Positions 3,568 to 59,176 of a stretch of DNA of 64,000 nucleotides are shown here, piece after piece. Under the pieces are notes generated by a model that worked only from the letters and a program-made list of their open reading frames with translations, had not been told where the DNA came from and made no database searches. The stretch covers positions 89,680-153,679 of the forward strand of contig CABMJJ010000009.1 of the NCBI GenBank assembly GCA_902386555.1, read 5' to 3'. Numbering within the stretch: the first letter of the stretch is position 1; each line of letters opens with the position of its first letter. The translations under genes were made by a program, and so were the position numbers. This DNA is from Candidatus Bilamarchaeum dharawalense. Its GTDB lineage: Archaea; Micrarchaeota; Micrarchaeia; Anstonellales; Bilamarchaeaceae.

Positions 3568-3683
3568 TGTCAGCAGCAGTGCAATTTCCCGCCCGGAGGG
3601 CAGTACTCATATCACCGTGAAGGGGCTTAACTTCTGAGTTCGAAACGGGATCAGGTGTTTCCCCCTACCTATGACCGCTGACA
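3568..3683 (-). rRNA. rrf: 5S ribosomal RNA
   Basis: Read on the minus strand, the region begins TGTCAGCGGTC and ends GCTGCTGACA. These close helix I, with TGTCAGC pairing to GCTGACA. Inside lie the conserved GGGGGAAACACC, CCCGTTTCGAACTCAG and GAAGTTAAGCCCC blocks of 5S rRNA. The length of 116 bases fits. A TATA-like TTTAAAAAG at about 3705-3714 lies roughly 26 bases before the first transcribed base, so the gene seems to have its own promoter. No 16S or 23S gene is next to it, so it stands alone. Confidence 0.95.
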
Positions 3684-54523: not shown

Positions 54524-55612
54524 ATGGAAATAAAACAGACTTTAATATTGGAGACAACTGACTCTGTGTCAAAGGCGTTGCCGCAGCTTGATGAACATCC
54601 AGCGGTTATAGTTACCAAAAAAGGTAGGTATTATGGGATAATTGACCATCATAGTTTGAGTCAGAATGTTCGAGAACCCCACAACACAAAATGTGAAACA
54701 GTCGTGGTTCGACCACCAGTACTTTTTGAAACTGCACAGATGTTTGATCAAATGGAAGCATTTCTCACTGGACATTACAAAGCGCTTCCGGTGATTAACA
54801 AGGACCATCGTCCACTGGGTATCACCACCAGAGTGGAACTTCTGAAGGAGATGGTAAAAAATAAAATGATACCTCAACTTTCAGTTTCAGAAATAATGAG
54901 CAGCCCTGTTCAAACTGTGGATGAAAAGGACAGTGTTGGAACAGTAAAACGCATTATGAAAGAAAGCAGACTCAGAAGATTGGTGGTAACAAGCAATGAT
55001 AGTCTGATCGGCATTGTCTCGGCCTATGATGTTGGTGCATGGTCCAACAGACCTAATCTGTTTTCAACAGGCAGAAAGGACATAAAACACCTTCAGATCA
55101 ACGTTGATGGAATGAGGATATCTGAATTCCTAAGGCCGGATGTGGCACTTGTTGAAGAAGGAGCTAATGTTCAAGCCGCAGTGAAGAAAATGGTTGATAA
55201 ACAGGTTTCCGCAGTGATTATTACATCTGAAGGAAAACCAGTTGGTGTGCTCTCTGCACTTGATATATTCAAAACAGTTCACGAAATGACCAAGGATGGA
55301 ATTAGAATCAATGTTGCTGGGCTGAATGATGATAACATGAACCATTACAATCACATAAACGATAAAATTGGTCATGTTCTTGAAAAATATATAAAAACAT
55401 TCAACATTAGGAATTGTAACGTACATGTGAAGGAAGGAAAATCTTCATTCGATGTGAATTTGAATTTTGACACTGATCACGGTCACCTGTCCATGAAAAG
55501 CGAGGGTGAGTTCCTAAAAGAATGTATTGACGAAGTTGCTGAAGAAGCAGATATAGTTCTTGGAAAGAAAAGAGAGAAAGTAAAACCAAAAATAAAGCGG
55601 AGGGAAGATTAG
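54524..55612 (+). CDS. Four-CBS-domain protein with ribosome-hibernation-like C-terminus
   Basis: A 362-residue protein. CBS motifs occur at about residues 8-60, 62-112, 120-172 and 200-252 (for example VSEIMSSPVQTVDEKDSVGT and ISEFLRPDVALVEEGANVQA), forming two Bateman modules that likely sense adenine nucleotides. Residues about 280-345 (NDKIGHVLEKYIKTFN, VHVKEGKSSFDVNLNF, MKSEGEFLKECIDEVAEEAD) resemble the HPF/RaiA ribosome-associated fold. The end is Lys/Arg-rich. The pilin-like gene begins on the next base. Confidence 0.8.
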   Translation: MEIKQTLILETTDSVSKALPQLDEHPAVIVTKKGRYYGIIDHHSLSQNVREPHNTKCETVVVRPPVLFETAQMFDQMEAFLTGHYKALPVINKDHRPLGITTRVELLKEMVKNKMIPQLSVSEIMSSPVQTVDEKDSVGTVKRIMKESRLRRLVVTSNDSLIGIVSAYDVGAWSNRPNLFSTGRKDIKHLQINVDGMRISEFLRPDVALVEEGANVQAAVKKMVDKQVSAVIITSEGKPVGVLSALDIFKTVHEMTKDGIRINVAGLNDDNMNHYNHINDKIGHVLEKYIKTFNIRNCNVHVKEGKSSFDVNLNFDTDHGHLSMKSEGEFLKECIDEVAEEADIVLGKKREKVKPKIKRRED

Positions 55613-56065
55613 ATGAAAGGACAAGTTAGCACAGAACTTTTAGTCATTGTTGGTTTTGTTCTATTGATATTTATTCCATTGCTGGTGCTGGTCTATCTAA
55701 AGGCAAATGACGCAAACCAGCAGATTGCATCCTACCAGGCAGAGCTGGCAGTTTCAAGACTTGGCTCTTTGGCAAATTCAATTGGGAGTCTTGGTACCAG
55801 TAGTGAGGTTATCACTGATGTGTACGTACCGCCAAACACAGTTTCATTGAGTACCAATGATGCAGGACGTGGTGGTGAGATTGTCCTAAAAATTGAAACC
55901 GGCCAAGGCCAAACTGAGATTGTTGAAGTTGTCAAATATCCAATAGATGGTGTTGGTACCATCGTTGACAAAACAACTGCTGGCGGTTGGGTTAAGATAA
56001 AAATAAGCTCGACCTACCAGGGTACTGGCAACGAAGCACACATCAAAATAGAAAGAGTCATTTAA
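55613..56065 (+). CDS. Pilin-like protein with class III signal peptide
   Basis: A 150-residue protein starting MKGQVSTELLVIVGFVLLIF. The QVSTEL segment after Gly3 fits the archaeal class III (QxSxExxxL) signal, cut by the EppA-type peptidase before a hydrophobic assembly helix. The rest is a small beta-rich ectodomain. Such proteins form pili or pilus-like surface fibres. No secretion ATPase gene is nearby. The 3' end overlaps the convergent radical SAM gene by eight bases. Confidence 0.82.
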   Translation: MKGQVSTELLVIVGFVLLIFIPLLVLVYLKANDANQQIASYQAELAVSRLGSLANSIGSLGTSSEVITDVYVPPNTVSLSTNDAGRGGEIVLKIETGQGQTEIVEVVKYPIDGVGTIVDKTTAGGWVKIKISSTYQGTGNEAHIKIERVI

Positions 56066-57089
56066 TTTTTATACATTGTTTTTTGTAATTTCTAAGAATC
56101 CAACAACCACCCATGCAAAGTTTTGTTGCGTTACATTTGGCACAGGATGGATCTGACTTCCATTCGTAATTTCTATATCGTGAGAATTTCTTTTGCCAAA
56201 TTATCTGGAGTGGCTCTGTCAGCCCATTTCCTTCCACCCAGTCCTCGCTGTCACCCTGTTCCGGGCAACCTCTAATCGTACCATCCACCCCAATGGTCAT
56301 CACAGTGAATCCAACTGGGCAGTAGACAGGAAGATCACGAACCGTATATCCTGGAGTGTAGGGCAGTGATTCACAGAGCATAATTTTGACTTGTTTCCTT
56401 TTTCTAAGAGCATGTATTTCACCGAGGATTTCATTTAGAGGTCTTGTGAGACTAACTTTGTTGTCCAACGCATTACCTATTGGCAAAAGAGGATTCAGAC
56501 GCCAAAGATCGATTTTTTCATTTACCAGGAGATTATGAAGATCAGGAAGAGAATACTGATTCAAGGCCATTAGAGTTGTTGAGATAACCACAGCAGATTT
56601 GCCGCGAATAAGCTTGATGGCATTGAAAACATGATCAAAACTTTTCGAATTGCGCCTTATTTTATTGTGAATTTCCTTGGGGCCATCCAGACTTAGCATG
56701 AAGGTGACTACCCCAGCCTTGATCAATCTATCAACCAAAGATTTATCTAATAATAATCCGTTTGTTGCAAGAGTAACTTTTAATCCTTTTTTTGAAGCGT
56801 AGGCGATAATTTCAACAAGATCTTTTCGAATAAGTGGTTCTCCACCGGTGATGGCAAAAATGCTAATACCAAAATCTGCAGCCTGGTTGATTAGGGACTT
56901 GATTTGCGCAGTTGTCAGCTCATTCTTTAGCTGATGTTTTGTCACTCCGCAATGGACACAATCGAATATGCATCGTTTGGTGGCTTCCCAACCTAACATG
57001 GTTGGCGGGGGTAGCTCTAATCCAGTTTGGTACCTGGCAGAAAGAGCCTTGCGGTATTTCCAGCTTTGGGATAGGATGTTTTTGGGCAA
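56058..57089 (-). CDS. SPASM-domain radical SAM enzyme, probable peptide maturase
   Basis: A 343-residue radical SAM protein. The CxxxCxxC cluster is CIFDCVHC at residues 40-47, followed by the ITGGEPL SAM-binding motif. The C-terminus (about 265-340) is a full SPASM domain: CPVGF, a GVDGTIRGCPEQ segment, then CAKCNATKLCMGGCW and a last Cys. SPASM enzymes of this PqqE/AlbA/MftC type usually modify ribosomal peptides. The start is TTG at 57089 with a GGTGA box, 12 bases after the second short peptide gene. Two related short peptides and a TrmB regulator precede it in one operon. Confidence 0.92.
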   Translation of the reverse strand: MPKNILSQSWKYRKALSARYQTGLELPPPTMLGWEATKRCIFDCVHCGVTKHQLKNELTTAQIKSLINQAADFGISIFAITGGEPLIRKDLVEIIAYASKKGLKVTLATNGLLLDKSLVDRLIKAGVVTFMLSLDGPKEIHNKIRRNSKSFDHVFNAIKLIRGKSAVVISTTLMALNQYSLPDLHNLLVNEKIDLWRLNPLLPIGNALDNKVSLTRPLNEILGEIHALRKRKQVKIMLCESLPYTPGYTVRDLPVYCPVGFTVMTIGVDGTIRGCPEQGDSEDWVEGNGLTEPLQIIWQKKFSRYRNYEWKSDPSCAKCNATKLCMGGCWILRNYKKQCIKIK

Positions 57090-57101
57090 CGGGTCACCGA
57101 A

Positions 57102-57212
57102 TTATTGTGGAATGGGTCCCATGTAATCCACTGTCGGACGTTCTTCGATCTTGGTTTTTTTAGGCATTTTTTTAATTGGTCTTTTCGGTTTTGGTTTTTT
57201 CTTTTTTACCAT
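57102..57212 (-). CDS. 36-residue peptide B, candidate precursor
   Basis: A very basic N-terminus (Lys/Pro-rich, residues 1-15) leads into a core that matches peptide A: M-P-K-K, three residues, Glu23, then R-P-T-V-D-Y-M-G-P at 25-33, ending I-P-Q. Ten of 18 core positions are identical to peptide A and the spacing is the same. It has no cysteine. The gene sits 12 bases before the SPASM radical SAM gene and 4 bases after peptide A. The most likely role is substrate of that enzyme. Confidence 0.72.
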   Translation of the reverse strand: MVKKKKPKPKRPIKKMPKKTKIEERPTVDYMGPIPQ

Positions 57213-57216
57213 AGAA

Positions 57217-57369
57217 TCACTTCAATCCGATGAATTTCTTGATTTTATCAAACAAAGATAGTGGCTTTACCACTGGGGCTGACGGTGCGTCATCAATTGG
57301 AGGCCCCATATAGGCTACCTGAGGCTTCATTTCCATTGCTGATTTTTTTGGCATCTGATTTTTTCCCAT
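57217..57369 (-). CDS. 50-residue peptide A, candidate precursor
   Basis: The core M-P-K-K (6-9), Glu13, K-P-Q-V-A-Y-M-G-P (15-23) parallels peptide B. After the core the peptide continues with an Asp/Ala/Pro linker and an amphipathic C-terminal helix (LSLFDKIKKFIGLK), which could be a membrane-active or leader-like recognition segment. It starts four bases after the TrmB regulator stop. No cysteine is present. Conserved Glu and Tyr, seven residues apart, are natural cross-link candidates. Confidence 0.72.
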   Translation of the reverse strand: MGKNQMPKKSAMEMKPQVAYMGPPIDDAPSAPVVKPLSLFDKIKKFIGLK

Positions 57370-57373
57370 AGTA

Positions 57374-58108
57374 TCATCTCTTTTTAGCTAATTTCCAAAG
57401 AATGTTGAATTGTTTCCGGTTTACATCTGCAGCTTCTTTACTTTTAATCATAACTGCATGCATGGGACTTCCCCAAACAAGAAACACGACCTTATCCCCA
57501 TAGACATAGGTTGGATTTGGATTAAAGAACTCGATTGGCAGAAGACGGTATTCTGATTGGGGGCCAGAAAAGAATTCAGTTGCACCTTCAAACGACAGGA
57601 GTTTTTCCCTGAGATTGAATTTTCTAAGATCATTTATGTATTTTTCAGTGGCAGGCTGATCATATTCCTTAAATTTAGATTCGTCCACTCCGAAGATGAG
57701 AGCAGTTTCTCTTGTACGCTTCATATGATCCAACATGTCACGAAGGATGGTTCGAACAACATTCTTGCCCTTGTAGACCTCTACAAATGTTTCATCCTTG
57801 GGCATCAGAGAAACTTTCTTTAGATCAGGTACCATCTGTTCGAGCCTGGATTTCATATCCTCAGCATAGACCACCAACTGTTCTGGTGGAAGTGCTTGAA
57901 AATTCTTTTTGCCTTCCTTAACAACATAGCTGACAAAACCTTTCTCAAGAAGACGATCCAATGCGTCATAGCACACCTGTCTGTGCATTCCAGTTCTTTC
58001 AGCTAATATATTGACAGTAATAGAATCGCTCATTAGAAGTTTTAGGTAAACTTCAACCTCATTGTTAGTGAGGCCAAGCTCTTTGAGGAGGTTTTTGTCG
58101 ACTGGCAT
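57374..58108 (-). CDS. TrmB-family transcription regulator
   Basis: A 244-residue protein. The N-terminal winged helix (LKELGLTNNEVEVYLKLLMS to TGMHRQVCYDALDRLLEKGF) is typical of TrmB-type regulators. It is followed by a coiled segment and a C-terminal alpha/beta ligand-binding domain resembling the phospholipase-D-like TrmB part. It is first in the operon with peptides A and B and the radical SAM gene, and is divergent from a second radical SAM gene, so it could control both sides. Confidence 0.9.
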   Translation of the reverse strand: MPVDKNLLKELGLTNNEVEVYLKLLMSDSITVNILAERTGMHRQVCYDALDRLLEKGFVSYVVKEGKKNFQALPPEQLVVYAEDMKSRLEQMVPDLKKVSLMPKDETFVEVYKGKNVVRTILRDMLDHMKRTRETALIFGVDESKFKEYDQPATEKYINDLRKFNLREKLLSFEGATEFFSGPQSEYRLLPIEFFNPNPTYVYGDKVVFLVWGSPMHAVMIKSKEAADVNRKQFNILWKLAKKR

Positions 58109-58195: not shown

Positions 58196-59176
58196 ATGAA
58201 CCACACAACACTACCAAAAGTGCTCTCGATTAACATAGTAAAAGCTCGGGTAGATGGTAAACCCGGCAAACGTGCTCAGTTAGTACTCAATACCGGTGAA
58301 TGCCAGTATGCTGCAGAACGAAGAAGAGAAAAAAGAAAGGCGTGCGAATTTTGTGCATTCCACGATCAAAAACCATCAGAACACGGGATCCCATTTGGTG
58401 ATGCGATACATATGGCAACAAACGTTGCCCGGGTGGATGCAATCGAGCTCCTTATGAGCGGCGGGTCCCTATTGGATCAACGACAGGTGGCTAAAGAACA
58501 GTTAGGCGAACTGCTTGGTTTGATACCCCAATCTCAAATTCGCACGGTTCTATTAGAATCTCGGCCAGAGTTTATCACCAATGAAAGTTTACTATTTGTA
58601 TTGAGACACCTGACCACCGTGCAAAATCCGCATCAACCAATGAATTTGGAAGTTGCCATAGGAGTGGAAACCTATGATGACCACATTAGATGCGAGGAAC
58701 TTGGCAAGGGATTTGCCTTTAATAAATTCTTAGCTGCTGCAGGGCAAATAACTGCAAATGGAGCAACACCAGTAGCCTATTTGCTAACGGGATTGCCAAT
58801 GTTTGATGAAACAAGTGCACGTCACGATTTGTTTAGAGCAGCAATGAAGATTGATGAATTTAGCAGACTGTTTGGCCAATTAATTCCAGGATATAGATAT
58901 CCAACATCTTCACCAGTTCGAATTTGTATTGAATCGTTTTTCCCAGTTGAAGGAGTTACCACCTTGGCAGCAGGCAGTTATCTTACGCCAGCATTTGTAG
59001 CAGGAGTTGTAAGGGGGATAATGGAGAAATTTGGACTGGAAATTTATATAGCAACTTCAAGTGAAAACACTGGTGCTCAGCACCCACTTACTGAATTTAA
59101 ACAACTGTTCGAAAGATTCAACGAAAGCCAAGATATTCGCCATTTGGATGCAATAATTAGAGGGAGAGCAGAATGA
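58196..59176 (+). CDS. Radical SAM protein of the RaSEA/Elp3-like group
   Basis: A 326-residue radical SAM protein whose cluster has an unusual spacing (CQYAAERRREKRKACEFC, C-x13-C-x2-C). The later blocks LLMSGGSLLDQRQV, VLLESRPEFITNESL and LEVAIGVETYDDHIR resemble the TIGR01210/RaSEA family, which works with ArcS to make archaeosine in tRNA. No arcS or tgtA is nearby, so another substrate, possibly peptides of the divergent operon, cannot be excluded. It overlaps the next gene by ATGA. Confidence 0.75.
   Translation: MNHTTLPKVLSINIVKARVDGKPGKRAQLVLNTGECQYAAERRREKRKACEFCAFHDQKPSEHGIPFGDAIHMATNVARVDAIELLMSGGSLLDQRQVAKEQLGELLGLIPQSQIRTVLLESRPEFITNESLLFVLRHLTTVQNPHQPMNLEVAIGVETYDDHIRCEELGKGFAFNKFLAAAGQITANGATPVAYLLTGLPMFDETSARHDLFRAAMKIDEFSRLFGQLIPGYRYPTSSPVRICIESFFPVEGVTTLAAGSYLTPAFVAGVVRGIMEKFGLEIYIATSSENTGAQHPLTEFKQLFERFNESQDIRHLDAIIRGRAE

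Follow-up and report, generated by a model that had tools for sequence, protein, structure and literature searches.

The closest described family of the enzyme treated here is TIGR04133, a group of bacterial radical SAM enzymes with partner lipoproteins (TIGR04134); this pairing was tested on three bacterial loci (see below). In NCBIfam, this pair of enzyme and lipoprotein is named as a "hypothetical equivalog" only, and no paper on TIGR04133 or on the radical SAM-associated lipoprotein was found in the literature searched. Other SPASM radical SAM enzymes act at tyrosine residues, among them MftC and PqqE, the latter with the spacing E-x3-Y. PlpX, an enzyme of spliceotide maturation, excises tyramine at Xaa-Tyr-Gly (PMC11002830, PMC10533398); it works without a leader, and a short XYG tag can be enough (PMC10533398). 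For archaea, the experimentally validated RiPPs are reported to be lanthipeptides from Haloarchaea only, and radical SAM-modified archaeal RiPPs are described as predictions (PMC12144867).

The locus described here belongs to Candidatus Bilamarchaeum dharawalense. The window, i.e. the whole stretch of DNA that was analysed, comprises 64,000 nt (CABMJJ010000009.1, positions 89,680-153,679 of the forward strand). On its minus strand, a TrmB gene is followed by the genes of peptide A, peptide B, and a SPASM radical SAM enzyme; the gaps are, in this order, 4, 4 and 12 bases, and the distance between the TrmB and the radical SAM gene is 284 bases. A sequence-only reading of this DNA had given coordinates, lengths, strand and all these spacings exactly. 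The features of the operon are:

57374..58108, minus strand: TrmB-type HTH regulator, 244 aa, first gene of the operon (Pfam TrmB, 53.7 bits)
57373..57378, minus strand: Shine-Dalgarno-like GATGAT preceding peptide A
57217..57369, minus strand: peptide A, 50 aa, MGKNQMPKKSAMEMKPQVAYMGPPIDDAPSAPVVKPLSLFDKIKKFIGLK, candidate substrate with a helix-like C-terminal tail
57301..57324, minus strand: motif copy A, P-Q-V-A-Y-M-G-P, which aligns with MVAYGPGP, MMAYGPGP and FMVYGPAP of the relatives' partner proteins
57216..57221, minus strand: Shine-Dalgarno-like AGTGAT preceding peptide B
57102..57212, minus strand: peptide B, 36 aa, MVKKKKPKPKRPIKKMPKKTKIEERPTVDYMGPIPQ, candidate substrate with 13 Lys+Arg residues
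57114..57137, minus strand: motif copy B, P-T-V-D-Y-M-G-P, which aligns with MVDYGPMP of the G306 partner
57094..57098, minus strand: Shine-Dalgarno-like GGTGA preceding the TTG start of the radical SAM gene
56058..57089, minus strand: SPASM radical SAM enzyme, 343 aa, TTG start (Pfam Radical_SAM and SPASM)

The Shine-Dalgarno-like elements lie 3-4 bases 5' of the starts of peptide A, peptide B, and the radical SAM gene. Besides TrmB and the two peptides, the latter gene has one more neighbour in the window, a convergent pilin-like ORF (55613-56065, plus strand); its 150-aa protein starts with MKGQVSTELLVIVGFVLLIF, which resembles an archaeal class III (pilin-type) signal peptide. Further observations in the window are an unusual fusion of a CBS-domain protein to a C-terminal Ribosomal_S30AE-like domain (54524-55612, plus strand), a divergent RaSEA-like archaeosine radical SAM protein (58196-59176, plus strand; 77 bits, family cut-off 212), and a 5S rRNA gene (3568-3682, minus strand; Rfam RF00001, 77 bits).

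Peptides A and B are identical at 11 of 18 core positions; ten had been counted in the sequence-only reading, whose own pattern gives 11. The score of their ungapped local alignment is 62, a value reached by one of 5000 residue-shuffled pairs. Among the identical residues, nine have degenerate codons; at six of these, A and B use different synonymous codons, and the six comprise all five such positions of PxVxYMGP. Conservation is thus at the level of the protein rather than of the DNA, i.e. selection acted on the protein. The codon log-odds (0.41 bits per codon for A, 0.45 for B) rank in the top 1% of the 212 window ORFs that start with ATG and encode 30-60 aa. Based on these signals, the two previously uncalled short ORFs are most likely genuine genes, and their products are paralogues. 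Neither has a family match in Pfam or NCBIfam, and only a single genome is known to have them. A scan of 301 genomes of the phylum for the DNA pattern of PxVxYMGP gave just these two sites; both this pattern and the full 18-residue core, when used as search handles, were found here alone. A single further YMGP match in the organism's own genome lies in an ORF lacking the V-x context and was judged to be due to chance. An amphipathic tail was rejected as a special feature of peptide A, since helical moments as high as its own are obtained when the residues of the tail are shuffled.

The enzyme scores 96 bits with Pfam Radical_SAM and 29 bits with SPASM. It possesses the CxxxCxxC motif (C40, C44, C47) as well as all seven SPASM cysteines (C257, C275, C316, C319, C325, C329, C339). 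An AlphaFold model had a mean pLDDT of 75 and a pTM of 0.82, the SPASM part being weak; its best PDB matches were SuiB, PqqE and SkfB, so that the closest structural matches of the predicted fold are peptide-modifying SPASM enzymes. Among 18950 families, TIGR04133 scored highest, with 175 bits for the window enzyme, 196-247 bits for its archaeal relatives, and 617 bits for a true member, compared to an NCBIfam cut-off of 425.

The window enzyme is absent from 16 genomes of the same genus, where the best matches are remote radical SAM proteins. Within the phylum, full-length relatives exist in G274 (39% identity) and G273 (34%) only. A profile of these three enzymes (A1), run on genomes around named Nanoarchaeota and Thermoplasmatota loci, gave a single strong new match in each case, G306 with 445 bits and G742 with 430 bits, the next best match having about 214 bits; a search at the level of the order yielded G1254 as well. 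No close enzyme was detected in Omnitrophota, and viral contigs gave remote radical SAM matches only. In a tree of 43 radical SAM proteins, the window enzyme groups with G274, G306 and G742 (clade A, support 100/98), and G273 groups with G1254 (clade B, 100/100). Both clades and the bacterial TIGR04133 members constitute a single supported set of 14 rows (98/97). For each enzyme of clades A and B, TIGR04133 is the best NCBIfam model, always below the cut-off; for G274 and the clade B enzymes, the mycofactocin family is second-best. The window enzyme is the most divergent one of clade A (35-40% identity to the others, branch 1.46), and it does not have the relatives' CC pair ahead of the G-x-D-G segment (TACCIG in the relatives, TVMTIG here).

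In G274, G306 and G742, the enzyme is directly preceded by a small two-TM protein of 68-111 aa, whose tail contains xYGPxP once or twice: the G274 partner (111 aa) has PFMVYGPAPHP and the C-terminal PTMAYGPAPR, the G306 partner (78 aa) has PMVAYGPGPMVDYGPMPPVS, and the G742 partner (68 aa) ends with TMMAYGPGPA. These three proteins are homologues at 38-41% identity, Y-G-P-x-P is invariant among them, and none has a Pfam family above its cut-off. The motif contexts of the window peptides are V-A-Y-M-G-P-P and V-D-Y-M-G-P-I-P; in both copies, Y-M-G-P is one residue longer than the relatives' Y-G-P. Outside the motif, no homology of the window peptides to the two-TM partners was detectable, nor do they contain a TM segment. 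A TrmB gene was not seen in the upstream stretches of about 1.4 kb beside the three relatives' enzymes. Judged from these alignments, the conserved part is Tyr-(Met)-Gly-Pro, and not the Glu/Tyr pair or MPKK. It is our guess that the Met insertion in the motif and the divergence of the enzyme belong together. Of the two candidate modification sites proposed initially, the Y-M-G-P part has a counterpart in the relatives, which have Tyr-(Met)-Gly-Pro in common, whereas the Glu/Tyr pair has none. Absence of the core beside homologous radical SAM genes had been named as a refutation of the initial proposal; taken literally, this applies to the full 18-residue core, which is absent elsewhere, but not to its YGP part. 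According to the positive-inside rule, Lys/Arg-rich loops are related to membrane topology; because such a loop lies between the two TM segments of the partners, this arrangement suggests that the motif tail faces outwards.

The frequency of the motif was determined for 98 radical SAM loci, by searching for ORFs of less than 250 aa which have their stop at most 1000 bases from the CxxxCxxC codons and contain YGPxP or YMGP. Exactly three loci (G274, G306, G742) have such an upstream ORF; it is absent from the other 95, which are mixed radical SAM enzymes including clade B. Since G274 had been the first to attract notice and had contributed to the definition of the motif, it was left out of the Fisher test; G306 and G742 had been found blind, via the enzyme profile alone. 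The comparison of these two loci (2/2) with the others (0/95) gave p = 2e-4. The proposal that the peptides are substrates of the SPASM enzyme is very probably right, considering that a small protein with Y-G-P-x-P is encoded upstream of the enzyme in each of the three nearest relatives and that two of them were identified via the enzyme alone. An ORF with LYGPG(R/K)HYGR beside another group of archaeal radical SAM enzymes (L023, L025, L026, L031) was not counted, because the adjoining enzyme comes from a different part of the tree and the string is inside a conserved multi-TM protein.

For the clade B enzymes (G273, G1254), a YGP partner was not found upstream; they were kept among the negatives. 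Divergently transcribed from the genes of these enzymes is that of a conserved two-TM protein without YGP (L107 1209-1625, minus strand, in G1254; L022 2569-2826, plus strand, in G273), which has I-Y-A or V-Y-A directly after the first TM segment and is possibly the clade B partner. At a distance of 5 kb from its clade B enzyme, G273 encodes a protease-like surface protein of 1971 aa (L045 10702-16617, minus strand) with AIYGTPEAG just past the N-terminal anchor; this string has the bacterial YGTP form.

In plasmid records, three lipoproteins were found beside TIGR04133-type enzymes; they contain CYGMP (Treponema), CEYGSP (Parabacteroides) and CEYGTP (Phocaeicola), i.e. a motif xYG[T/S/M]P located at the lipobox or shortly past it. 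Two of the three exceed the TIGR04134 cut-off and the third carries this name in its record. An xYGxP partner is found beside the enzyme in three archaeal relatives and at three bacterial loci, the window having Y-M-G-P instead; taken together, the bacterial loci and the archaeal partners indicate a tendency, in this part of the tree, for the enzyme gene to adjoin that of a protein held in the membrane, with xYG(x)P close to its anchor. The window peptides themselves have neither a family match to TIGR04134 nor a lipobox. An Aureibacter plasmid (L054 2201-2914, plus strand) harbours three tandem DUF1843 genes of 56 aa, starting with MYQVLYAAGIREA, MYLPMYAASIREA and MIIQPYGAGIREA, directly 5' of a radical SAM gene and a methyltransferase gene; this trio is a candidate precursor family with xY[A/G].

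The operon, the paralogy, the coding signal, the complete cluster ligands, the clade membership and the motif co-occurrence were computed here. As the best explanation, we propose with a probability of roughly two in three that the adjacent SPASM radical SAM enzyme has peptides A and B, both made by the ribosome, as its substrates. It would recognise the V-[A/D]-Y-M-G-P segment and would most likely modify its Tyr. By analogy, the reaction is most likely a Tyr-centred H-abstraction leading to a cross-link, an excision or a side-chain oxidation. Enzyme and substrate would represent an archaeal branch of TIGR04133-type systems, in which a radical SAM enzyme is combined with a membrane-anchored partner: in the relatives, xYGPxP belongs to the tail of a small protein with two TM segments, and in bacteria xYGxP lies close to the lipid-bearing Cys of a lipoprotein. 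Since the motif is thus carried by anchored proteins in the archaeal relatives and in bacteria, what these systems usually produce is probably a protein that stays in the membrane and exposes a modified Tyr site on the cell surface. In the window, two short, soluble, cationic peptides under a TrmB regulator would replace the anchor, and the motif would have gained a Met. Neither in the window nor in the stretches around the three relatives does a protease, an exporter/transporter or an RRE gene adjoin the radical SAM gene; a secreted classic RiPP is therefore not indicated, though these functions may be supplied in trans, and a modified peptide that stays inside the cell or is displayed on the envelope would be the better fit. 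For this reason, and because TIGR04133 enzymes have partner lipoproteins with a similar YGxP motif, calling the locus a candidate new RiPP-type system was too strong. Several findings speak against our explanation: the window's Y-M-G-P differs from Y-G-P, its enzyme is divergent and without the CC pair, its peptides lack a TM segment and resemble the two-TM partners in the motif only, clade B has no upstream YGP partner, the peptides occur in one genome, and 0/16 same-genus genomes possess the enzyme. That a motif is common to the bacterial pair and to architecturally unrelated archaeal partners points at a substrate site, and with 36 and 50 aa the peptides are short, expressible test substrates which make the reaction directly testable. 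More tentatively, and with considerable doubt, one may envisage a cross-domain class of radical SAM systems with envelope-retained products, in which a Tyr-Gly-Pro-type site is rewritten (perhaps into a reactive ketoamide, through the splicing out of tyramine) on small membrane-anchored proteins of several archaeal groups and on bacterial lipoproteins, the window archaeon using two free peptides with a Tyr-Met-Gly-Pro site.

A specific form of the chemistry, PlpX-like excision of tyramine at the motif, by which the membrane-anchored relatives would display a reactive ketoamide, appears unlikely. The relatives' motif is literally X-Y-G (V-Y-G, A-Y-G, D-Y-G; E-Y-G and C-Y-G in bacteria), as would suit an enzyme that acts leader-free on a short XYG tag (PMC10533398); however, the window has Y-M-G and not Y-G, there is no adjoining PlpY-like RRE gene and no Nif11 or nitrile-hydratase leader, and XYG is so short that many proteins contain it by chance. 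We likewise give little credence to an accessory or anchoring role of the peptides, as recognition partner, chaperone or membrane tether of an enzyme that acts on another protein or on a small molecule. The SPASM enzymes in the score list include several that do not mature peptides (AhbC, AhbD, NirJ and BlsE) and the relatives' partners are membrane hairpins, but a short tail motif, present once or twice per locus in otherwise differing carriers, is expected of a substrate site and not of a folded partner. A PQQ-like cross-link between Glu and Tyr, or another one inside the 18-residue core, is improbable: the two residues are kept between A and B and PqqE is among the structural matches, but they are 7 apart here versus E-x3-Y, the PqqE family score is 101 bits versus a cut-off of 381, and the Glu is found at that place in 0/5 motif copies of the relatives. 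With neither this Glu, seven residues before the Tyr, nor the MPKK start present in any relative, a PQQ-like link of the Glu and Tyr that the sequence-only reading had put forward as modification sites loses its basis. That the ORFs are due to chance or decay and resemble each other in YMGP owing to a recent duplication is highly improbable, as the single genome and the missing family matches are outweighed by the synonymous differences between their codons, a codon bias in the top 1%, the ribosome-binding sites, the close spacing of the genes, and the recurrence of the motif in relatives.

A comparison with known systems places the preferred reading, in which both peptides are substrates, as follows. 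With RiPPs in general, the window shares a short genetically encoded peptide adjoining a putative modifying enzyme. Sactipeptides and ranthipeptides differ, as neither A nor B contains a Cys donor; this absence of Cys agrees with the earlier statement that the locus is not a thioether system. The PQQ system (PqqA/PqqE) is similar with respect to a small peptide containing Glu and Tyr and to the fold match, but the Glu is not kept in relatives, the spacing is different, and no PqqD gene adjoins. Mycofactocin (MftA/MftC) likewise combines a small peptide with a SPASM enzyme, MftC acting on Val-Tyr; in contrast, the window Tyr is internal, the precursor does not end in Val-Tyr, no MftB chaperone gene is adjoining, and the MftC score is 116 bits versus a cut-off of 265. 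Spliceotides (PlpX/PlpY) also rely on a SPASM radical SAM enzyme, and X-Y-G occurs in the relatives' partners as well, whereas the window has A-Y-M-G and D-Y-M-G, no adjoining RRE gene (PlpY) and no Nif11-type leader. The greatest similarity is to TIGR04133/TIGR04134 of Bacteroidota and Treponema: it is the best-scoring enzyme family, belongs to one well-supported set in the tree, has an adjacent small partner with Y-G-x-P where the archaeal systems have Y-G-x-P or Y-(M)-G-P, and also lacks an adjacent protease or exporter. The differences are the score of 175 bits versus the cut-off of 425, the two-TM proteins of the archaeal relatives and soluble peptides of the window in place of lipoproteins, the extra Met in the motif, and the TrmB regulator. 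On the basis of sequence comparison, the window system would work like TIGR04133/TIGR04134 without being a member by cut-off, and is best filed as a new archaeal variant.
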